From: Antarctobacter sediminis
GTDB lineage: Bacteria; Pseudomonadota; Alphaproteobacteria; Rhodobacterales; Rhodobacteraceae
Assembly: GCF_019218285.1 (NCBI RefSeq)
Contig: NZ_JAHUZG010000002.1
Location: 434,001-498,000, forward strand
DNA length: 64,000 nucleotides
Direction of reading: 5' to 3'
The translations under genes and the position numbers were made by a program. The notes under the pieces were generated by a model. It worked only from the letters and a program-made list of their open reading frames with translations. It had not been told where the DNA came from and did no database searches. Each line of letters begins with the position of its first letter. Position 1 is the first letter of the stretch. This document shows positions 10,703 to 62,026 of this stretch, in pieces.

Positions 10703-11348
10703 GGGCGGGCACCGCCGATGGCGCGGCCATGGCGTGTTCGGCCCCGGCCGGGGACAGGACGCTGCGCAATGCCTTTTGCGCCAGAACGCGCTCTGCATCC
10801 ATCCGCGACTCGAACCAGCTGAGCACCAAGGCCGTGGGCATGGCGACGGCCAGCCCGACAGCCGTGGTCAGAAGGGCAACCCAGATCCCCCCCGCAAGGA
10901 TGGATGGATCAACCTGCGCGCCCGCCGATTGCAGCGCCTGAAAGGCCGAGATCATGCCAAGGACAGTCCCGAACAAACCCAGCAGCGGCGCCAGTTGCGC
11001 CACGGAATCCAGCAGGCGAAACCCGGTTTCCAACCGGGCAAACCGGGCCTCTGCCTCGGCCTCCAGCCGCTGAGCGTCGGCCTGTCCGTCAAAGGCCATC
11101 GCCAGAACCGGACGCAGATAGCTGCGCGACTGGTCCAACTGTCGCCGCGCGGCCAATCGGTTGCCCATGTCCCAGGCTTCGACCGCCTCGCGCAGGGCCT
11201 TGTGCCGTCCAACCCCTGCCGCCGCGAACTGCCACAGCTTGTACAGGACAACGGCCAGAACAAGGATCGAAACCACGCCCAGCACTACGACAACCGGACC
11301 GCCCAAATCATAGACGCGGACCAGCGCGTCCGTCAGGGTTGCGATCAT
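10695..11348 (-). CDS. exbB: ExbB/MotA/TolQ proton channel
   Basis: A 217-residue integral membrane protein with three helices: about residues 18-38, 117-140 (LAPLLGLFGTVLGMISAF) and 155-178 (WVALLTTAVGLAVAMPTALV). The second and third carry the GLFGTVLGM and TTAVGLAVA motifs diagnostic of ExbB/TolQ. The preceding cytoplasmic helix region contains the usual charged stretch (EAEARFARLETGFRLLD). It is coupled by 4 bp to the upstream periplasmic protein gene, so the whole heme operon is continuous. It forms the pentameric channel around the ExbD pair. Confidence 0.92.
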   Translation of the reverse strand: MIATLTDALVRVYDLGGPVVVVLGVVSILVLAVVLYKLWQFAAAGVGRHKALREAVEAWDMGNRLAARRQLDQSRSYLRPVLAMAFDGQADAQRLEAEAEARFARLETGFRLLDSVAQLAPLLGLFGTVLGMISAFQALQSAGAQVDPSILAGGIWVALLTTAVGLAVAMPTALVLSWFESRMDAERVLAQKALRSVLSPAGAEHAMAAPSAVPAHA

Positions 11349-18195: not shown

Positions 18196-20058
18196 TTGCC
18201 CGTCGTCATTTTCCACCTCGGAAGCCCGCTGTTCCCCGGAGGTTACGTCGGCGTCGATGTCTTTTTCGTCATCAGCGGATTTCTCATCACGAGCATCCTT
18301 CTCGAAGACATCGAGAAAGACCGTTATTCGCTGCTGGACTTTTACAAGCGGCGCATTCTCCGAATATTGCCCGCTTTGTCGGTGGTCCTGCTGGCCACAT
18401 TCTTCCTGTCCGGCCTGCTGTTCTTCGAGGCCGAAAGGGTCGAGACCGGCAAATCGATCATCGCCGCGGCGGCCTTCATTTCGAACTTCTACTTCTGGGC
18501 CGACGCCGGCTATTTTACCGCGCCGGCGGAATCGAAACTCTTGCTGCACACCTGGTCGCTGGCCGTCGAAGAGCAGTTCTACATCTTCTTCCCGCCACTT
18601 CTTTTTGCCATCGCGAAATTCGCCCAGCGCTACATGATCCAGATCGTCATTGGCCTGATCGTTCTGTCGCTTGCGGGCTGCATCGTGCTGACCATCAAGG
18701 ACCAACCCACGGCATTCTACCTGCTGCCACCGCGGGCTTGGGAGTTGGGCATCGGCTCGCTGCTGGCAATACTCGCGCAAAGACAGCTTGCCCCGAAATT
18801 CGAAAAAGGCTGGATCGTCGGCTTGTTCGGTCTGGCCCTGACCATCCTGCCAATGGTCTTGCTGAACCGGACCTCTGCCTTCCCCGGCTGGAATGCCATC
18901 GCCCCGGTCCTTGGCGCCGCGCTCTTGATCGGTTGGGGCCAAAGCGGACCGGTCGGAGCGTTGCTGTCTTCCCGGCTTTTCGTCGAGATCGGCAAGGTCA
19001 GCTACAGCCTCTACCTTTGGCACTGGCCGGTCATCGTCTTCTGGAAAGCACATTCGGGCGAACATCTGTCCCTGACCGAAATGACCTTTCTTGCCGTTTT
19101 GTCGATTGCCTTGGCCGTGGCGTCCACCTACGGGATCGAACGCCCCTTTCGCACGTCGCGTGCCCGCGCATTCGCCCCGGCCAAGGTCACGTTTTGCGGC
19201 CTGATCGTTCTGGTCGCCTTTGGCGGTCTGGGATGGCTGGGAATGTCCGGCCTTGTTACCCTGCGCAGCTTTCCCGACAATGTCAGCCGCATCGCATCCT
19301 ATGCGGACTACCGCAGCTGGCCCGATCACAAGGATCAGTTCCGCACCGGAACCTGCTTTATCACGCAATCCGACGCCTCGTTCGACGCTTTTGACCAACC
19401 CGGATGCGCAACCCCTGATCCGCAAAAGATAAATGTGCTTTTGATCGGTGACAGTCATGCCGCCCAATACCGCAACGCCCTGAACACGGCACTGCCGGAG
19501 GCACACGTGATGCAGGCGACGTCGTCTGGCTGCCGCGCGCTATTGGACGCAGAAGGGGCACCAAGATGCACCGACCTTCGTTCGTGGGTCTTCACCGAAT
19601 TCCTTCCCGCCAACGATGTCGATCTTGTTGTCCTTGCCGGGCGGTGGCGTGAGGCAGAAATGCCATTTGTCTCCCCGACCCTGTCGCGGCTGTCGTCCTT
19701 GGCGGAACATGTCGTGGTGATTGGCCCCACCGTTGAATACGATGGCGTCTTTCCCGAAATTCTCGCGCGGAGCGAACTTACCGGGGACCACGTCGACTTT
19801 GATACGGTTCGGAAACCCGGCATGACCGCCATCAACGATGTGATGCGCCAAGCCACGGAAGCCTCCGGGGCGACCTATGTCGATGTTCTCGGCACCATCT
19901 GTCCCGACCAAACCTGCCATCTTGTTGCGCCTGACGGGGCACCGATGCAGTTCGACTATGGCCACCTGACAGCCTCTGGCGCGCGCTTTGTGATCCAAGA
20001 ACACATCGAAACCCTCAAGGCGCTGACCGGGCGTGCAACAAATGATGACATGAAGTGA
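18196..20058 (+). CDS. OafA-type membrane acyltransferase with SGNH domain; stop codon at codon 3 of the usual start
   Basis: The 620-codon open frame encodes an acyltransferase-3 domain of about ten membrane helices (GVDVFFVISGFLITSILLED, HTWSLAVEEQFYIFFPPLLF). A C-terminal periplasmic SGNH hydrolase domain follows (catalytic Ser in LLIGDSHAAQ, His in DYGHLTASGA). Such proteins O-acetylate surface glycans. The natural ATG at 18151 reads ATG-AAG-TAA, so codon 3 is a stop, where the downstream paralogue has TAC. Only non-standard or TTG starts (18196) remain, and they would lose the N-terminal QPHIDGLRTVAVLP motif with its start of helix 1. It is probably inactive or poorly expressed unless the stop is read through. 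Confidence 0.75.
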   Translation: MPVVIFHLGSPLFPGGYVGVDVFFVISGFLITSILLEDIEKDRYSLLDFYKRRILRILPALSVVLLATFFLSGLLFFEAERVETGKSIIAAAAFISNFYFWADAGYFTAPAESKLLLHTWSLAVEEQFYIFFPPLLFAIAKFAQRYMIQIVIGLIVLSLAGCIVLTIKDQPTAFYLLPPRAWELGIGSLLAILAQRQLAPKFEKGWIVGLFGLALTILPMVLLNRTSAFPGWNAIAPVLGAALLIGWGQSGPVGALLSSRLFVEIGKVSYSLYLWHWPVIVFWKAHSGEHLSLTEMTFLAVLSIALAVASTYGIERPFRTSRARAFAPAKVTFCGLIVLVAFGGLGWLGMSGLVTLRSFPDNVSRIASYADYRSWPDHKDQFRTGTCFITQSDASFDAFDQPGCATPDPQKINVLLIGDSHAAQYRNALNTALPEAHVMQATSSGCRALLDAEGAPRCTDLRSWVFTEFLPANDVDLVVLAGRWREAEMPFVSPTLSRLSSLAEHVVVIGPTVEYDGVFPEILARSELTGDHVDFDTVRKPGMTAINDVMRQATEASGATYVDVLGTICPDQTCHLVAPDGAPMQFDYGHLTASGARFVIQEHIETLKALTGRATNDDMK

Positions 20059-20261: not shown

Positions 20262-22151
20262 ATGAAGTACCAGCCTCACATTGATGGGCTCAGAACCGTT
20301 GCCGTGGTTCCTGTCATCGCGTTCCACGCCGCACATGACATTGCACCGGGCGGATTTATCGGGGTCGATGTCTTCTTTGTGATCAGCGGGTTTCTGATCA
20401 CCTCGCTGCTTTTGTCGGACCTGGAGTCTGGAAAGTATACGATCGCGGAATTTTATGAACGCCGTGCCCGGCGCATCCTGCCCGCACTGCTATTCGTTGT
20501 CGCCTGTTCGTCGATCGCCGCTCTGGCGTTGCTGCCGGCGAACGATCTGCGCACCTTCGGGCTTAGCGTCACGGCCACAATGACCTTTGTGTCGAACATG
20601 TTCTTTTGGCGGGAAATCGACTATTTCGCCAACAACGCCGAGCTCAACCCGCTTCTCCATACGTGGAGCCTTGCGGTCGAAGAACAGTTCTACATCTTCT
20701 ACCCGCTTGCTCTTGCCTTCATCTTCAAGTTCGGGCGCCGGGTCCTGCTGATCTCGATGGTCGCGGTTGGCATCCTGAGTTTCGGGCTGACGGTCGCGGC
20801 CATGGACATCAGTCCTTCGGCCGCCTTCTACCTGTTTCCATTGCGGGCATGGGAACTGCTGATCGGCGCGGTGGCGGTGTTTTTCTTTCGGCCGGCCGGA
20901 TCGTCCGACCGCCCTGTCCTTGACAACCTTTTGTCGGCACTGGGCTTGCTTGCGATCCTGCTGAGCATTGCCTTTCTTGACGAAAGCCAGCCCTTTCCGG
21001 GCCTTCTGGCGCTGCCCGCCTGCGCCGGAACCGCATTGGTCATTCTGTTCGCCAGACCCGGAACCCTTGTTCATGCGGTTCTGACCCGCAAATGGATGGT
21101 CCTGCTGGGGCTGATTTCCTACAGCGCCTACCTTTGGCACCAGCCACTGATCGTCTTTTACAAACACGTATTCCCAGACGACACCATCGGTGTGATCGTC
21201 GCGGCCGTCGCGACGTTCCCCATGGCCTTCCTCAGCTGGAAATACATCGAACAGCCCTTCCGCAAGAAAACTTCGGGCCTGTCGAGGGCGCAGGTTCTGA
21301 AATATGCGTCAGTATCGCTTGCGGGGTTTGCATTGCTTGGCTTGTCGCTGACGGCCAACAACGGCTGGGAATTTCGCCACAGTCCCGCCGAACGAAAGGT
21401 GCTGAGCAGTTTCATCGACGGCAAGGACTATGTACCGGGACGGTTCAATGCCCTGCGTGGCCGGGCTTTTCCCGACGACACGGCCAAACCCAAGATCCTT
21501 GTCATCGGCGATTCCTACGGGCAGGACCTTGTAAACGCGATCTACGAGATCGGGCTGGACAAGGAACTGGAACTTTCGACCTACCATATCTCGGCCCGCT
21601 GCGGGAATCTGATGCTGGAGGATCTGGCCACCTATCAGGATGCCGCCGACCGTCGGCGATGCGCAAAAGCGTCGGACTATGATGATCCGCGTCTGGCGGC
21701 GCGGTTGCGTCAGGCGGACCAGGTGTGGCTCGTTTCGTCGTGGAACGCGTGGTCGGCCCCCCTGTTGCCCGCGTCCCTTGACGCGATGGCCAAGGCAACA
21801 GACGCAAGGATCGTCGTCTTTGGCCGGAAACACTTTGGTCTGCGCTCGACACACCGGTTCTTTTCGGGCGGGGTCGCTGCGCTGGTTGGCGAACGCGATC
21901 TTCCCCTCGATCTGGCCGAGGTCAGTCGTGAGATGAGCCAAACCATCCCACCACATGCCGACTATGTCGATCTTCAGAAGTTGCTTTGCGCAAGTTATGA
22001 AACCTGCACCAATGCGGATGCCGATGGAACGCCGCTGACCTTCGATGGCACGCATCTGACGCCTGAGGGCGCAAGGCACATGGGTGCCCTTTTGCGCCCC
22101 GTCCTTGACCAAATACTGTCCGCTCAAGTGGACATCGGGACCGACCCATAA
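20262..22151 (+). CDS. OafA-type membrane acyltransferase with SGNH domain
   Basis: A 629-residue intact paralogue of the gene upstream. The N-terminus (KYQPHIDGLRTVAVVPVIAF) carries the conserved His of acyltransferase-3 proteins. It is followed by IGVDVFFVISGFLITSLLLS and HTWSLAVEEQFYIFYPLALA. About ten membrane helices precede a C-terminal SGNH domain (Ser in VIGDSYGQD; Asp/His in DGTHLTPEG). It is expected to acetylate a cell-surface polysaccharide from cytoplasmic acetyl-CoA. The first 44 coding bases differ from the upstream copy at only two positions, which points to tandem duplication or gene conversion at the 5' end. Confidence 0.88.
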   Translation: MKYQPHIDGLRTVAVVPVIAFHAAHDIAPGGFIGVDVFFVISGFLITSLLLSDLESGKYTIAEFYERRARRILPALLFVVACSSIAALALLPANDLRTFGLSVTATMTFVSNMFFWREIDYFANNAELNPLLHTWSLAVEEQFYIFYPLALAFIFKFGRRVLLISMVAVGILSFGLTVAAMDISPSAAFYLFPLRAWELLIGAVAVFFFRPAGSSDRPVLDNLLSALGLLAILLSIAFLDESQPFPGLLALPACAGTALVILFARPGTLVHAVLTRKWMVLLGLISYSAYLWHQPLIVFYKHVFPDDTIGVIVAAVATFPMAFLSWKYIEQPFRKKTSGLSRAQVLKYASVSLAGFALLGLSLTANNGWEFRHSPAERKVLSSFIDGKDYVPGRFNALRGRAFPDDTAKPKILVIGDSYGQDLVNAIYEIGLDKELELSTYHISARCGNLMLEDLATYQDAADRRRCAKASDYDDPRLAARLRQADQVWLVSSWNAWSAPLLPASLDAMAKATDARIVVFGRKHFGLRSTHRFFSGGVAALVGERDLPLDLAEVSREMSQTIPPHADYVDLQKLLCASYETCTNADADGTPLTFDGTHLTPEGARHMGALLRPVLDQILSAQVDIGTDP

Positions 22152-26503: not shown

Positions 26504-26520
26504 TGGCGACCCCGGCAGGA
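26504..26520. repeat. attL: 17-bp copy of the tRNA-Arg 3' end
   Basis: TGGCGACCCCGGCAGGA is identical to 61950-61966, the 3' end (CCA, acceptor and part of the T arm) of the tRNA-Arg gene, and in the same orientation. It is the displaced tRNA tail expected at the far end of an element integrated by the tyrosine recombinase beside that tRNA. Confidence 0.85.
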
Positions 26521-26842: not shown

Positions 26843-27031
26843 ATGCAGCTTGAAACAAACTCCAGAAAGCTGCTGAAGGTTCTAAAAGGCGCAGGTTTCG
26901 AGGTGGTCTCGATCAAAGGCGATCACCACAAACTTCGGAAAGACGACATGACCGTGATTGTCCCGCACCCGAAGAAAGACCTGCCAATCGGAACCGTCAG
27001 AAGCATCTACAAAATGGCCGGGCTTCTTTAG
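26843..27031 (+). CDS. hicA: HicA-type mRNA interferase toxin
   Basis: A 62-residue dsRBD-like HicA (YcfA) toxin. It has KLLKVLKGAGFEVVSIKGDH with the catalytic His in GDHHKLRK, then a VPHPKKDLPIGTVRSIYKMA tail. The ribosome-binding site AAAGGAGG precedes the ATG at 26843. In this family the toxin cleaves mRNA when not bound by HicB. It is the first prophage gene inside attL and probably helps retain the element. Confidence 0.88.
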   Translation: MQLETNSRKLLKVLKGAGFEVVSIKGDHHKLRKDDMTVIVPHPKKDLPIGTVRSIYKMAGLL

Positions 27032-27094
27032 CCCGGTCAACCAGTCCAATCAGTCTGTCCATCGCCCCTCCAACATCACGTTCGGAGTCTTATC

Positions 27095-27523
27095 ATGCGC
27101 TATTACACAGCGATCGTTCACCAAGACGAAGGCAGCGCCTACGGCCTGACCTTCCCCGACCTCCCCGGCGCCTTTGCCGCCGCTGACTCTTGGGACCAGA
27201 TCCCCCAAGTCACGGCGGAAGCGCTTGACCTCTGGTTTGAAGATCAACCGGATGTCGAGGCAGCTTCGCTGGAAGAGATCCGCCAAAGGCCGGAAGTTGC
27301 CGAAGAACTGGCGACTGGCGCCGTGCTGATGCCCGTCCCCTACATCCCCGCCGACACGGCCGCGGCGCGCGTCAATATCACCTTGGAACGTGGATTGCTG
27401 CGCGCGATCGACGAAACAGCCAAAGCGCGCAAGATGACCAGGTCGTCCTTCCTTGCATCCGCGGCCCGGAGGGAACTGACCGGAGTGAATCAGCAAAACA
27501 TCGGCCGGATCAGCAAAGAGTAA
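27095..27523 (+). CDS. hicB: HicB-type antitoxin
   Basis: A 142-residue antitoxin. The N-terminal partially degraded RNase H fold (YYTAIVHQDEGSAYGLTFPD, LPGAFAAADSWDQ) is followed by a C-terminal ribbon-helix-helix DNA-binding segment (ARVNITLERGLLRAIDETAK). It lies 63 bp after hicA and is probably co-transcribed. The ribbon-helix-helix part is expected to bind the two GTGTA dyads upstream. Confidence 0.9.
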   Translation: MRYYTAIVHQDEGSAYGLTFPDLPGAFAAADSWDQIPQVTAEALDLWFEDQPDVEAASLEEIRQRPEVAEELATGAVLMPVPYIPADTAAARVNITLERGLLRAIDETAKARKMTRSSFLASAARRELTGVNQQNIGRISKE

Positions 27524-57675: not shown

Positions 57676-57879
57676 TCATGCGGCGTCCTCCGTCTTCGGC
57701 GGGTTGTCAGCCATGTAAGCACGCAGCCGGTCCACGCGGGCCATGGTTGGGCTGGATCGGCCCGCCTTCCACGACTCCCATTCGCGCCCACCCGCGTCGA
57801 TGGCCGCACGCAACACAGCCTGCGGCGTACGCTCAACAGCGCGCGCATAGGCCTCGATCTCTGAGATGAGCTGTTCCAT
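57676..57879 (-). CDS. Cro-like helix-turn-helix regulator
   Basis: A 67-residue protein starting at 57879 (MEQLISEIEAYARAVERTPQ). A compact helix-turn-helix follows (AVLRAAIDAGGREWESWKAG, RSSPTMARVDRLRAYM). It is divergent from the CI repressor with three operator palindromes between them, the classic Cro position. Its promoter would be TTGACG-N17-CATTTT on the minus strand with operator 1 in the spacer. Confidence 0.72.
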   Translation of the reverse strand: MEQLISEIEAYARAVERTPQAVLRAAIDAGGREWESWKAGRSSPTMARVDRLRAYMADNPPKTEDAA

Positions 57880-57891
57880 GCTGGCAAAATG

Positions 57892-57949
57892 GGGATATTT
57901 CCCGATTTCGTCAACGGGAAATTTCCCGGTGGAAGCTGGGAAGCTTCCC
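57892..57949. promoter_or_regulatory. cro-cI operators O1-O3 (12-bp palindromes)
   Basis: O1 GGGATATTTCCC (57892-57903), O2 GGGAAATTTCCC (57916-57927) and O3 GGGAAGCTTCCC (57938-57949), spaced 24 and 22 bp centre to centre. O2 and O3 are perfect palindromes. They lie between the divergent cro and cI starts and fit a three-site right operator. Confidence 0.82.
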
Positions 57950-57964
57950 CGGCACTTTAGTTGC

Positions 57965-58606
57965 ATGGAGCGCTCAGAGAAATTCCTTGTCGGTTTGAAG
58001 GCAGTTATGTCTTCCAGAGGGCTGAAAGACGCTCCACTCGCTGAGCGCGCCGGGTTGGGTACATCCTTCATTCGCGACCTGTATCGAAAGAAGGCCGCGT
58101 CCCCGAAACTTGAAAACGCTCTGCGGATTGCTGATGCTCTCGACCTCACCGTCGAAGAGATCATTGCAGCAGCAGACGGACTATCTGCCGCCAATTCAAT
58201 CACCATCGCGGGCAAGGTTGGCGCTGGGGCGCGGGTTCCGGTATTCGATGCCTATGAGAAAGGCGCAGGCCCCCAGGTCGAGGCACCGCCGGGCCTACCC
58301 CCTTCCGGCGTCGTAGCGGTTGAGATCCAAGGCGACAGCATGGAACCCGTTTTTAGCGCGGGAGACCTGCTGTTCTACAGCCGCAACAGCCACGACGGCG
58401 TACCCGTTGAAGTCATCGGGAAACGCTGCGTCTGCGAGGACACGGAGGGCATGGGCTGGGTGAAACTGGTCCGCTTGGGCCGCGACGAGGGCACATTCGA
58501 CCTCCACAGCTTCAACGACGCCAGCCCAACCATGTACGGTGTCCGGTTGAAATGGGCCGCACCCGTGCGCCTGCACTGGCCGGCGGACCTGGTGAAGAAG
58601 CTGTGA
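57965..58606 (+). CDS. CI-like repressor with S24 peptidase domain
   Basis: A 213-residue lysogeny repressor. The N-terminal helix-turn-helix is LKDAPLAERAGLGTSFIRDL. A linker with IAGKVGAGARVPV includes a candidate Ala-Gly cleavage site. The LexA/S24 domain has catalytic Ser in EIQGDSMEPVF and Lys in VEVIGKRCVCEDT. The start at 57965 has no ribosome-binding site, as often with leaderless cI mRNA. Self-cleavage upon RecA activation would induce the phage, and the protein probably binds the GGGAWRYTTCCC operators. Confidence 0.9.
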   Translation: MERSEKFLVGLKAVMSSRGLKDAPLAERAGLGTSFIRDLYRKKAASPKLENALRIADALDLTVEEIIAAADGLSAANSITIAGKVGAGARVPVFDAYEKGAGPQVEAPPGLPPSGVVAVEIQGDSMEPVFSAGDLLFYSRNSHDGVPVEVIGKRCVCEDTEGMGWVKLVRLGRDEGTFDLHSFNDASPTMYGVRLKWAAPVRLHWPADLVKKL

Positions 58607-59115
58607 TTTCAGCTTGGCTGGAGGTCGCGGTTCAGGCCACCACGATTGTGACTTCGGTCGCGGCCATCGCCATATCAATTCTCGCCTATCGTCGCTCGGC
58701 AGCCCCAAAGACACCGTCGGCGTGGACGACCTTTGTGGGGGCCGGCGAGCAAGGCTGCACGGTAACCGTGCACATCAGGAACGACTTGAGGTCAACCGTA
58801 CGCCTGCAAGAGATCGAAGGCAGAGGGACAGAGATATCATGGCCCCCAAAAGCCGTATACACCGAGAAACGCTTTCCGCCCAAACTGTCGCATCATGAAC
58901 CGCCGCACTGGTCGAGACGCTTATCGCGATCAGAAGAACTCGCCCCCGGCGCCGAGGCCGCCATTAATATCTGCTTGTCGCGCAAGGCGATGAGCTCTCG
59001 GACCAACGTATCCATCCGCCTCTGGGTCCAGACCAGCTCTCGGACGATGAAAAGAAGGGCGATTACCGTCCCGATTATCGTGCCCACCAACACCTCCAGC
59101 ATCACATCCTCCTGA
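58603..59115 (+). CDS. Membrane-anchored protein co-expressed with CI
   Basis: A 170-residue protein beginning with GTG at 58603 in 4-bp overlap (GTGA) with the cI stop. One N-terminal membrane helix (VTSVAAIAISILAYRRSAAP) is followed by a beta-rich domain (TVTVHIRNDLRSTVRLQEIE, TNVSIRLWVQTSSRTMKRRA). Coupling to the repressor means it is made in the lysogen. A superinfection-exclusion or defence role is plausible but not shown by sequence. Confidence 0.6.
   Translation: MISAWLEVAVQATTIVTSVAAIAISILAYRRSAAPKTPSAWTTFVGAGEQGCTVTVHIRNDLRSTVRLQEIEGRGTEISWPPKAVYTEKRFPPKLSHHEPPHWSRRLSRSEELAPGAEAAINICLSRKAMSSRTNVSIRLWVQTSSRTMKRRAITVPIIVPTNTSSITSS
58893..59102 (-). CDS. Alternative small membrane gene on the opposite strand
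   Basis: Opposite the 3' end of the CI-coupled gene, an ATG at 59102 preceded by AGGAGG opens a 69-residue frame. It has one membrane helix (LVGTIIGTVIALLFIVRELV) and a helical tail (RRMDTLVRELIALRDKQILM). Size and layout resemble the small membrane protein at 31386. The two overlapping frames cannot both be judged from sequence alone. Confidence 0.35.
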   Translation of the reverse strand: MLEVLVGTIIGTVIALLFIVRELVWTQRRMDTLVRELIALRDKQILMAASAPGASSSDRDKRLDQCGGS

Positions 59116-59193
59116 TCTTGGTTCGCCCAACTTAAACACAGGCATCCAGTGTTGCGCACACCCCGGGACCACCGAACGGTCACTTAACTTTTC

Positions 59194-59226
59194 AAAAACC
59201 CCGCCATCGCGCGGGGCTTTTCTTTA
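59194..59226 (+). terminator. Terminator after the CI operon
   Basis: CCCCGC (59199-59204) / GCGGGG (59211-59216) with loop CATCGC, followed by CTTTTCTTTA and preceded by five A. It can act on both strands. Confidence 0.75.
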
Positions 59227-59289
59227 TTCACGGCCCGGGCCGTGACGGCCCGTCTCTAGCACGCTACACCCGCCCGCGCCATCGTTTTC

Positions 59290-59338
59290 GGGATATTTCC
59301 CCATTATCAATTGACTTCGGGAAGTTTCCCCATATTCT
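59290..59338 (+). promoter_or_regulatory. Operators O4-O5 overlapping the integrase-operon promoter
   Basis: O4 GGGATATTTCCC (59290-59301) and O5 GGGAAGTTTCCC (59319-59330) match O1-O3. A promoter TTGACT (59311-59316)-N16-TATTCT (59333-59338) reads rightwards, with O5 inside its spacer, so binding should block it. This looks like the second operator region of the CI system. Confidence 0.78.
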
Positions 59339-59364
59339 GGCCACCATCAACCGATGGAGGCACC

Positions 59365-59619
59365 ATGCTCATCCCAACCGATCCCATGATCCCGGCCCAG
59401 GCCTATTGCGGCCTGCCCGTTCGGATCGAACACCCCGACCCCGCCGAAGTCTTCGCTGACTGGTTCCATTTCTGCGCCAGCGGCTTCGACCTGCGTGACA
59501 TGCGCCCGCGTGCGGATTTCGACGGCGGGGCGATGGGCCTTCCCCGGATCCGAAACGGCTTCACCGCGCAATGGTGCCCCCGCCTGCGCTGCGCCGTCGC
59601 CGACCAGTTTCGCCACTGA
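59365..59619 (+). CDS. First gene of the rightward operon, unknown function
   Basis: An 84-residue protein (PTDPMIPAQAYCGLPVRIEH, FADWFHFCASGFDLRDMRPR). GGAGG precedes the ATG at 59365. It has three scattered cysteines and no recognised fold. As the first gene under the CI-controlled promoter it is probably expressed early after induction. Confidence 0.6.
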   Translation: MLIPTDPMIPAQAYCGLPVRIEHPDPAEVFADWFHFCASGFDLRDMRPRADFDGGAMGLPRIRNGFTAQWCPRLRCAVADQFRH

Positions 59620-59641
59620 CCCAGTCAAAGGGAGGCCCACC

Positions 59642-59983
59642 ATGCCCACCACTCACGGACCCGCGCCGGGCCTTCCGCCAGCGCCAGCGCTCGATCGCAA
59701 CCGCATCGCGGCGGCGGTCGAGCTGCTGGCCCAGGTCAGCCCCGAGGCGCGGCTGCTGCAGCTCCGCAACCTCTGCGTCAACAATGGCCTCTGGTGTGTT
59801 CCCGAGGACGCCCGCGACTACCGCCCGGTCCTGTTCGAAGTGCAGCTTTTCGGCGTTCCGGCGGTGGCCGAGACGCCCGGCGAACTGCCCGCCAACTGGA
59901 TCCGCGCCGCCCGCCGCATTCTGGAGGGCGCACCCGCCGCGCCCGCCGCCGCCCACCCCATTCAATCGGAGAAGTTATCATGA
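59642..59983 (+). CDS. Phage early protein, unknown function (113 residues)
   Basis: GGGAGG lies upstream of the ATG at 59642. The protein is Pro/Ala-rich at both ends with a helical core (AAAVELLAQVSPEARLLQLR, YRPVLFEVQLFGVPAVAETP). It is followed in 4-bp overlap by the next gene. No family is recognised. Confidence 0.6.
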   Translation: MPTTHGPAPGLPPAPALDRNRIAAAVELLAQVSPEARLLQLRNLCVNNGLWCVPEDARDYRPVLFEVQLFGVPAVAETPGELPANWIRAARRILEGAPAAPAAAHPIQSEKLS

Positions 59984-60288
59984 CCCGCATCCCTCGCGAT
60001 TTCACCGGCGATCTGATCGTGCCGCCCTCAGGCCAGGTCCATCCCGTCGCTGCCATCGACGCATGGCTGCGCCTGAAAGAACGCCAGCGGCTGGAGGACG
60101 GCAGCAGCGCGGCCATCCCCCCGCACCGCCTCGCGCGCCTTCTGGGCCAGCCAGATCCCGTTGACGAGATCGACGCTGCCCGCATCCGCGCCCTGCCCGC
60201 AACCCGCGCCGCGATCGCCACGCTGGACGCCCGCGCCGGCTCGCGCGAAATCGCGACCCATATCTACGGCCCGGAGGGCGCAGCATGA
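59980..60288 (+). CDS. Phage early protein, unknown function (102 residues)
   Basis: A helical 102-residue protein (AIDAWLRLKERQRLEDGSSA, PDPVDEIDAARIRALPATRA). It is coupled by 4-bp overlaps to both neighbours. No motif is recognised. Confidence 0.58.
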   Translation: MTRIPRDFTGDLIVPPSGQVHPVAAIDAWLRLKERQRLEDGSSAAIPPHRLARLLGQPDPVDEIDAARIRALPATRAAIATLDARAGSREIATHIYGPEGAA

Positions 60289-60482
60289 TCCACCCGGCCA
60301 TTAACGCGCTGTTGTCCGGGCTTGTGACGGTCTTTCTGCCCGCCGCCCTCGCCGCGACCTTCATCCTCGCCGCCCACTGGCACCACCTGCCCAACGGCTG
60401 GCGGCTAGTCGGCGGGTGCGCAGCCTTCTGGCTCTGGACCGTGGTCATGGTCATCGCCATCGTCAATTGGGGGACCGCATGA
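60285..60482 (+). CDS. Small two-helix membrane protein
   Basis: A 65-residue protein with two membrane helices (LLSGLVTVFLPAALAATFIL and FWLWTVVMVIAIVNWGTA). It is coupled to both neighbours by 4-bp overlaps. Such proteins in early phage operons can affect host membranes; the role here is unknown. Confidence 0.6.
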   Translation: MIHPAINALLSGLVTVFLPAALAATFILAAHWHHLPNGWRLVGGCAAFWLWTVVMVIAIVNWGTA

Positions 60483-60670
60483 ACGCCTCCCTGACCCGCG
60501 AAGATGCGGACCCGCTCTGGTACGCCCGCACCGTCCTCGCCGACATCGCAGCCCAGGACGGTGCCGTCGTGATCGAAGCCTGCCGCACGATCGAAACACA
60601 CAGCGCCGATCCAAGCGAGTGCCGCGACGCACGGGATCTGCGACACCGGCTTGAAGGCGAGACCGCTTGA
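60479..60670 (+). CDS. Small phage protein (63 residues)
   Basis: A 63-residue soluble, acidic protein (MNASLTREDADPLWYARTVL) starting at 60479 inside the previous stop. No family is recognised. It overlaps the next gene start by 4 bp. Confidence 0.52.
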   Translation: MNASLTREDADPLWYARTVLADIAAQDGAVVIEACRTIETHSADPSECRDARDLRHRLEGETA

Positions 60671-60861
60671 CCGCCCCCCGCCCGCTCACTGAAAAGGCAC
60701 TTCGTGAGGCCGCTCAGGTCGCGGTCGATACCGGCTGCCCTATTGTGATCGAGAGCGGCGGGCGGGTTTACAAGGTCATGCCACCGGGCGCATCCTATCC
60801 GATCACGGTAGAGGAAAAGGATCAGGCGGAGTGCGACGCAGCGTTCGGGGTGTCAGATTGA
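60667..60861 (+). CDS. Small protein before the integrase, possible excisionase slot
   Basis: A 64-residue protein from a TTG at 60667 (LTEKALREAAQVAVDTGCPI, RVYKVMPPGASYPITVEEKD). It overlaps the integrase start. The position is where an excisionase often lies, but I see no clear winged-helix motif, so the role is open. Confidence 0.5.
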   Translation: MTAPRPLTEKALREAAQVAVDTGCPIVIESGGRVYKVMPPGASYPITVEEKDQAECDAAFGVSD

Positions 60862-61931
60862 AGGGACTGTGGAGGCACCCTCGCACCGGGCTCCCATATT
60901 ACCGCACTCGCAGGGGAGGAAAGACGTTGCTGGTTCCGCTGCCTGTGGACCTAGCAGAAGACCACCCGGACTTCATCGCGGCCTGGGCCGAGGCCGCGCG
61001 CGGCGCGAAAGTTGAAAAACCCGCAGGCGGTACCCTGGCCAGCACATGGAATGCCGCGCTCGCCTCTGACAGTTTTTACACCTACAGCCGCGGATACCGC
61101 GCCATCATTGAGCGCGAGGCCGGGCGGATCACTGAGAAAGCCGGGAAGGTCAAAGCTGCGGCCATTGCAACCCGTCACGTCCGGGCCGATGTGATGCAAG
61201 CCGAGAACCCGGAGGCGCGGCTAAAAGCATGGCGCGTCTGGGCTGCGATCTGCCTGCCGATGGGGTGGATTATCGAAGACCCAACACACGGAATCAAAAA
61301 GCCGCGCCGCGCCGCGTCCACGGGACATCCGACATGGGCGCGTCCCGAGATCGACGCTTTCCGCAATGCATACCGTATCGGAACCACCGCCCGTGCGGTG
61401 ATGGAATTGACCTACTGGACCGGCGCACGGATCGGGGACGTGGTGATGATAGGCCCTCAGCACGTCGAAAAGGACGGCGTCCTGTGCTTTCGCCAATCCA
61501 AGACCGGCGACATGGCCTATGTTCCCTGGTCCTGCGCCCTCCCGGATTGGGCTGCGCATATGGAAGACGATAGGGAGCTTTGCAAGGAAGCGGTCGCGCA
61601 CCTATCAGGCGGGCTGACATTCCTGCAAACCAACAGGAAACGCCCGAGGTCGCACAAGAGTGCCGGCCAGGACATTTCGGCCGCCTGTCGTGCCATCGGA
61701 CTCGAACGCAGCGCTCACGGTCTCAGAAAGGCGCGCGCCGTGGCACTGGCCGACTCAGGTGCCACCACCTCGCAGATCGGTGCCTGGACCGGGCATCGCA
61801 GCCTCTCTGAGATAGCCCATTACACCCGCGAATGGGACCGGCGCAGCGCCGTGCGCGGAACGAGAACAGAACGTGAATTGGAAACCAGAACCGACCAGAT
61901 TGGAAACCAGATCCGCAAGGCTCAGAAATAA
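60858..61931 (+). CDS. int: Tyrosine recombinase integrase
   Basis: A 357-residue phage integrase. An N-terminal arm (RHPRTGLPYYRTRRGGKTLL) and a SAM-like core-binding domain (SFYTYSRGYRAIIEREAGRI) precede the catalytic domain. Its Arg I is in YWTGARIGDVVMIG, the His-x2-Arg in SAHGLRKARAVAL, and the His and nucleophile Tyr in TGHRSLSEIAHYTREWDRRS. A TTG start at 60858 overlaps the preceding stop. It lies 19 bp from attR in tRNA-Arg and should integrate and, with help, excise the element. Confidence 0.92.
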   Translation: MKGLWRHPRTGLPYYRTRRGGKTLLVPLPVDLAEDHPDFIAAWAEAARGAKVEKPAGGTLASTWNAALASDSFYTYSRGYRAIIEREAGRITEKAGKVKAAAIATRHVRADVMQAENPEARLKAWRVWAAICLPMGWIIEDPTHGIKKPRRAASTGHPTWARPEIDAFRNAYRIGTTARAVMELTYWTGARIGDVVMIGPQHVEKDGVLCFRQSKTGDMAYVPWSCALPDWAAHMEDDRELCKEAVAHLSGGLTFLQTNRKRPRSHKSAGQDISAACRAIGLERSAHGLRKARAVALADSGATTSQIGAWTGHRSLSEIAHYTREWDRRSAVRGTRTERELETRTDQIGNQIRKAQK

Positions 61932-61949: not shown

Positions 61950-61966
61950 TGGCGACCCCGGCAGGA
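61950..61966. repeat. attR: 17-bp core in the tRNA-Arg 3' end
   Basis: TGGCGACCCCGGCAGGA, identical to attL at 26504-26520. Integration here leaves the tRNA intact because the phage end restores its 3' part. Confidence 0.85.
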
Positions 61967-62026
61967 TTCGAACCTGCAACCTGCCCCTTAGGAGGGGGCT
62001 GCTCTATCCAGTTGAGCCACGGGGCC
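61950..62026 (-). tRNA. tRNA-Arg(CCT)
   Basis: A 77-nt tRNA gene with encoded CCA. The acceptor stem is GGCCCCG / CGGGGTC, the D-stem GCTC/GAGC, and the anticodon loop CTCCTAA gives CCT for Arg (AGG). The T arm is GCAGG-TTCGAAT-CCTGC. It serves as the prophage attachment site, with its 3' end facing the element. Confidence 0.95.

Follow-up and report, generated by a model that had tools for sequence, protein, structure and literature searches.

The window analysed here, a 64,000-nucleotide stretch of the Antarctobacter sediminis genome, contains a prophage of about 35.5 kb (26504-61966, with its end in a tRNA-Arg gene) that carries five short sites in two clusters, three between cro and cI and two at the promoter of the operon containing the integrase gene. 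It is very likely that these sites are operators read by the prophage CI protein, very probably by Cro too, and that they act at both promoters. The control of both promoters by CI and Cro is well supported by the sites themselves, their conserved spacings, the site pairs found downstream of cI in related loci and the co-variation of the operators with the DNA-reading head of CI. The five sites and their layout had been predicted from the DNA alone, and all five were recovered on the forward strand where they had been placed, as was the TTGACT-N16-TATTCT promoter with one site inside its spacer at 59311-59338 (Table 1). The accompanying claim that the sites define a CI regulon stands as far as their operator-like character goes, which is borne out by comparison, but it leaves out Cro as a very probable user of the same sites.

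Table 1 Features of the switch region and prophage ends, as positions in the window (L006 and L007 are viral contigs with related cI genes)
Feature	Position	Strand	Basis or remark
Probable attL	26504..26520		17 bp identical to tRNA-Arg 3' end
cro-like gene, 67 aa	57676..57879	-	named from place and size
Proposed cro promoter, TTGACG-N17-CATTTT	57886..57914	-	site 1 in spacer; read by eye
Operator site 1, GGGATATTTCCC	57892..57903	+	motif match; counterpart in same place in L006 and L007
Operator site 2, GGGAAATTTCCC	57916..57927	+	motif match; comparison with L006 and L007
Operator site 3, GGGAAGCTTCCC	57938..57949	+	motif match; comparison with L006 and L007
cI repressor gene, 213 aa	57965..58606	+	Cro/CI-type HTH at residues 11-68, Peptidase_S24 at residues 83-191
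Terminator-like hairpin, then CTTTTCTTT	59199..59216	+	73 bp ahead of site 4
Operator site 4, GGGATATTTCCC	59290..59301	+	upstream of left-promoter -35; kept in relatives
Left-operon (int operon) promoter, TTGACT-N16-TATTCT	59311..59338	+	consensus match; site 5 in spacer
Operator site 5, GGGAAGTTTCCC	59319..59330	+	within left-promoter spacer; kept in relatives
Six small genes, promoter to int	59365..60861	+	starts at 59365, 59642, 59980, 60285, 60479 and 60667
Tyrosine integrase gene, 366 aa if GTG at 60831 is the start	60831..61931	+	Phage_integrase, 54.2 bits
Probable attR	61950..61966		within 3' end of tRNA-Arg(CCT), 61950-62026, - strand

Exact sites of the motif GGGAWRYTTCCC exceed the chance expectation by far, and almost all of them lie in the prophage. 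The window holds eight matches, counting both strands, against 0.15 expected, and none of 100 shuffles reached eight. The genome-wide count that the original prediction had suggested as a check gave six sites, or 10 strand matches, in 5.12 Mb on 21 contigs, compared with 3 strand matches for a control in which the pattern was reversed; the one copy besides the five lies on another contig inside a coding frame that by eye encodes a short-chain dehydrogenase. When two mismatches are allowed the window contains 34 matches against 35 by chance, so that only the exact sites stand out. The description of the sites as 12-bp palindromes holds fully for two of them (57916 and 57938), while the other three pair in only five of six base pairs.

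The prophage has the hallmarks of integration into a tRNA gene, with a tyrosine integrase beside the tRNA 3' end and the tRNA end repeated at the other edge. The integrase gene, which starts at GTG 60831 or, in ORF calling, at 60927, ends at 61931, 18 bp ahead of the tRNA end. The CI protein combines a helix-turn-helix with an S24/LexA-type domain, as expected for a lambda-type switch, and the Pfam scores of HTH_26 (31.8 bits) and Peptidase_S24 (31.6 bits) both exceed their cut-offs. Its best PHROG is phrog_4, a transcriptional repressor, and one chain among solved structures is similar through the HTH (E 0.0019). The cro-like protein matched neither Pfam nor PHROG families at E 0.1, and its comparison with solved structure chains gave none of note (E 0.11). 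The six small genes of the left operon have weak family matches or none (Pfam, PHROG), and some of them have relatives in the related loci L066, L067 and L077. Between cI and the hairpin two ORFs overlap on opposite strands (58552-59115 on the + strand and 58893-59102 on the - strand); both have counterparts of about 89% identity in L067 and none in the other 42 distinct loci of the survey described below at E 1e-4. Beside attL, at 26843-27523, lie two small genes that by eye resemble a HicA/HicB toxin-antitoxin pair. Outside the prophage the neighbouring genes at 18196-20058 and 20262-22151 (called lengths 620 and 629 aa; 2.1 kb apart) resemble each other and are probably a tandem duplication, with stretches that are 71-85% identical.

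A promoter scan of 4.6 kb gave two promoter-like matches, of which the left-operon promoter is one, against a shuffle mean of 0.6. The candidate cro promoter agrees with the consensus at 8 of 12 bases, which is under the limit of that scan. Its transcription start would fall approximately on the cro ATG, and the cro mRNA may therefore be leaderless or nearly so. Terminator-like matches in this region of the window are not above shuffles (6 against 4.3), and a GC-rich terminator-like hairpin is located 70-75 bp ahead of the downstream site pair in the window, L066 and L067. The left promoter is followed in the window by a leader, CATCAACCGATGGAGG (59345-59360), that is common to L068, L070 and L081, loci of several operator types.

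In phage lambda, cI, OL/PL, the left early operon, xis-int and attP run in one direction. The window shows the same order and direction with cI, the terminator-like hairpin, the site pair and promoter, the small genes, int and att. As in lambda, cI and cro are divergent with three operators between them, a second operator cluster overlaps the promoter (assigned by consensus) of an early operon transcribed in the same direction as cI, with int and att at its end, and the two sites on the cro side are spaced by about 24 bp. The OR/OL-like layout put forward in the original prediction is thus found, with clusters between cro and cI and at a second early promoter. The additional proposal that the second cluster stands in place of a lambda-like left operon did not survive: the cluster occupies the position of the lambda left operator, and int ends the operon as it does in lambda. 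The lambda order, together with 17 of 19 integrase-containing records and the genes of the Paracoccus phage Pyei1 (both below), identifies the int operon of the window as a short left operon. Unlike lambda, the sites are of the form GGGA..TTCCC, they are arranged as 3+2 instead of 3+3, the left operon is short, and CI scores 13.7 bits where the cut-off of the Pfam family Phage_CI_repr is 22, which leaves it outside that family. No match to N, CII or CIII was found among the ten proteins scanned, a set taken from outside the part of the prophage where cII would lie.

The closest relatives of the window CI are encoded by L006 and L007 (85% and 79% identical). Both contigs carry five such sites, three of them at -73, -49 and -27 from cI, giving spacings of 24 and 22, and a downstream pair that is 29 bp apart as in the window. 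The search pattern used for these two contigs itself fixes GGGA and TCCC, so the constancy of these letters proves nothing and it is the places and spacings that count. The distance from the cI start to the downstream pair is 1325 bp in the window, 1470 bp in L007 and 1879 bp in L006; the spacing within the clusters is thus kept while the intervening DNA changes. The TTGACT-N16-TATTCT hexamers and the length of their spacer are the same in the window and in both close relatives (L066, L067). No relatives of CI were found in five other genomes of the genus at E 1e-20, and among 394 genomes of the family a threshold of 1e-80 returned only the own genome and one other (locus L101).

More distant relatives were collected with six peptide patterns, four of them within the C-terminal half of CI, which gave 53 loci including the window and, after nine duplicates were dropped, 44 distinct loci. 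Eight remote loci (L058-L065, 27-35% identical) were excluded from the start. Five loci with C-terminal-only matches (L079, L094, L095, L042, L044) were excluded from the downstream-pair test and from the CI-domain and Cro comparisons, and L071, which has little downstream DNA, from the downstream-pair test. Judging by record titles, most of the named hosts belong to the Rhodobacterales; titles outside this order are a Methylocystaceae bin (L041), Nocardioides marinus (L047) and the excluded Devosia and Methylopila loci. Operator types were assigned by hand and doubtful extra sites were passed over by eye. The half-sites are GGGAWW, GGGTAA, GGGTAW, GGGAAT, GGGGTA, GGGACA, CGGTAA, TAGGAT, TTTACA and TAGCGA, some of which are alike. 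Counted by hand over the 44 loci, sites 1 and 2 are separated by 23-24 bp in 28 and by 32-34 bp in 8, and a further 8 gave no clear set of cro-cI sites. The spacing of sites 2 and 3 is 22 bp in the three loci of the window type and 33-36 bp in 24 loci.

The downstream pair was sought with a model built from the two best cro-cI sites of each locus, allowing gaps of 20-44 bp and using 20 local shuffles per locus. In 34 of 38 loci the pair beats all 20 shuffles, with gaps of 29 bp (18 loci), 30 bp (4), 28 bp (3), 27 and 31 bp (once each) or 34-35 bp (7); the loci are related, so these counts are not independent events. No such pair was found in L080, L086, L089 and L055. TTGAC lies between the members of the pair in 26 of the 34 loci, which places the site corresponding to site 5 in the promoter spacer. 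This test replaced one with permuted motifs that considered gaps of 27-31 bp only and missed the types with sites 34-35 bp apart; there all 30 permuted models were surpassed in 25 of 43 loci, 21 of which also had TTGA between the sites, and ties came from permutations that leave the motif unchanged (1 of 30 for the window). A Pfam Phage_integrase model, run over whole records in place of a regular-expression search that gave false and missed matches, matched 19 of 27 viral records at E 0.001, 18 of them above the cut-off. In 17 of these 19 the integrase has the same strand as cI and follows the cI start at a distance of 3.1-12 kb (positions by hand), and in two, the records of L068 and L069 with the same cI region, it is on the opposite strand. 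Given these two records and the eight of 27 without a Phage_integrase match, the operon does not always show an int gene; many of the records may be fragments.

The operators change along with the DNA-binding part of CI. Across 37 CI proteins of eleven types the mean identity of the N-terminal domains is 19% for the 606 between-type pairs and 65% for the 60 within-type pairs, compared with 75% and 78%, respectively, for the C-terminal domains over all pairs. The between-type means of the N-domain range from 9% to 38%, with the exception of the type of the window and type N1 (55%), and identity within the TAGCGA type is only 39%. The C-domain means of type pairs range from 67% to 89%. Taken in blocks of ten residues, identity between types stays at 0.12-0.32 as far as residue 80 and rises to 0.88 at residues 81-90. 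The high identity of the C-domain is in part a product of selection, given that four of the six search patterns lie there, but this does not apply to the low identity of the N-domain or to the abrupt rise near residue 80. As judged by these comparisons, the operator type follows the DNA-reading domain of CI, and the C-terminal domain is common to the types.

A Cro-size ORF adjoins site 1 in all 37 typed loci, at a distance of 9-14 nt in 32 of them. One kind of Cro is present in the GGGAWW, GGGTAA (N1 and N3), GGGTAW, GGGAAT and GGGGTA types, where it is 50-78% identical between types, and its mean identities to the Cro of other types are 38% or less. Single-linkage clustering joined 30 of 37 Cro proteins into one group, and the kinds are therefore distinguished only by eye and by all-pairs identities. 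Cro follows the operators more coarsely than the CI head does. Residues 28-34 of Cro (window 57778-57798) read DAGGREW in all three members of the GGGAWW type, and in all of the 13 other Cro proteins of the same kind the fourth position is W (GAGW, GASW, GANW); these residues may form the recognition region of the GGGAWW-type Cro.

Locus L077 looks like a natural operator swap, with operators matching its different CI head. Its integrase is 95% identical to that of the window (integrase identity is 95-96% in L066 and L077), four small genes have relatives there, and the promoter and leader sequences that surround the sites can be aligned between L077 (about 11193-11235) and the window (59290-59338). 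At the same promoter positions, however, L077 has the GGGTA-type sites GGGTAGTTTTACCC and GGGTTATTTTACCC, and its CI N-domain is of another kind. At the DNA level the two are 83-85% identical on the cro side, 35-48% over most of the cI head and 67-85% in the C-domain, with one block at 43%. A different situation is met with N1 and N3, where the CI heads, in a comparison over part of the pairs, are only 16% identical and the sites in both are of the GGGTAA type. The Cro proteins of N1 and N3 are 73% identical between the types, the same as within N1, and those of L070 and L081 are 89% identical, which suggests that the operators can be kept constant by Cro when CI is changed; unrelated heads have perhaps been fitted to the same operators in this manner.

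The N1 and N3 pattern bears directly on the question of which protein the sites serve, as it implies that the operators can go with Cro and not with the CI head. Whether CI or Cro reads a particular site cannot be told from co-variation, and the sites could belong mainly to Cro or to another phage regulator, with CI using only a part of them, a situation for which Staphylococcus phage phi11 offers a parallel, since neither of its repressors was found to bind all three operators (PMC3991615). This division of labour is nevertheless unlikely. For most pairs of types a different CI N-domain comes with different operators, while the Cro proteins of six GGG-type groups remain alike at the identities given above. 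Moreover, a maintenance repressor would need sites at both promoters, and control by Cro only would presumably leave the lysogen unrepressed.

The position of the second pair ahead of the int operon would also suit arm-type sites for integration and excision, bound by Int or an excisionase, or a structural element, and the region of site 3 yielded a weak hairpin in the terminator scan. Such a role is highly improbable, as the pair shares the sequence type of the cro-cI sites in 34 of 38 loci, mostly straddling a -35 element, and in the window is 2.6 kb away from att. That the motif represents chance or a background repeat of the genome can be practically dismissed: the two-mismatch counts at chance level speak for it, but it is contradicted by the excess of exact matches, the six genomic sites and the spacing kept in two relatives. 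The sites are best regarded as operators for CI and, very probably, Cro.

On this reading sites 1-3 would be the equivalent of the right operator and sites 4-5 that of the left operator. A CI dimer at site 1 would cover the spacer of the cro promoter and site 2 adjoins its -35 element, whereas at site 3, located just ahead of cI, either Cro or an excess of CI may limit cI expression. As site 5 fills the space between -35 and -10 of the left promoter, with site 4 upstream of that -35, CI would shut off the left early operon with int as its last gene. In the lysogen both promoters would be off, and transcripts from cI would end at the 59199 hairpin before reaching int; silencing of the int operon in the lysogen is a natural prediction from this arrangement. 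Cro would compete with CI for the same sites, and upon DNA damage CI would cut itself by means of its S24 domain and so turn on both operons, including Int. Cooperativity between neighbouring sites is possible, as is looping between the two clusters, which are about 1.4 kb apart.

A named relative is the Paracoccus phage vB_PyeM_Pyei1 (MK291445; host Paracoccus yeei), whose CI is 46% identical to that of the window. Its genome has the palindromes TGGGGGAACTCCCCCA and TAGGGGAATTCCCCCA ahead of cI and a pair of sites 29 bp apart with TTGACA between them; the genes behind this pair finish with int and a tRNA attachment site. It differs in its operator sequence, in having two clear sites before cI that are 26 bp apart (a third is weak by eye), and in its long left operon with genes for pol III beta, an endonuclease, a helicase and a methylase and one small gene on the other strand. 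No operators are among the features listed in the two stretches of the record that were inspected. An arrangement with two left sites only is known from the lambdoid phage 933W, which has an unrelated host. For 933W PMC3317979 names OL1 and OL2, so that its repressor, like that of the window, has right sites and two named left sites, and this repressor is reported there as apparently not cooperative in binding adjacent sites. In phi11 three operators are located between divergent cI and cro as in the window, and PMC3991615 describes its PL-OL system as yet to be identified, whereas the window has a candidate. Staphylococcal CI is also the subject of PMC10584840. Among the open-licence matches listed, titles and the beginnings of abstracts gave no published description of the operators reported here.

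The lambda plan is old and well known, and the related prophages, as far as their sequences tell, keep this plan and change the operator sequence. Eleven head types with about ten kinds of half-site are built on one layout, and Pyei1 adds another half-site. It is somewhat more likely than not that in this wide group of prophages, with mostly Rhodobacterales hosts, immunity evolves by swapping nothing of CI but its DNA-reading head, along with operators at two promoters that can be kilobases apart. The joint of the swap would then lie around residue 80, at the start of the S24 domain, with the C-domain, the spacing and the layout with a -35 between sites remaining unchanged. Taken as a single locus, the window indicates that alphaproteobacterial prophages, too, make use of the two operator clusters of the lambda plan. 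Of greater interest is the wider pattern, in which the operator layout stays fixed while repressor heads are swapped and operators retuned at two promoters. The relatives would make an old question testable, namely how immunity changes when several operators at two distant promoters must shift together with CI and Cro, and they provide a natural set of matched repressors and operators that have a single C-terminal domain and almost the same geometry.
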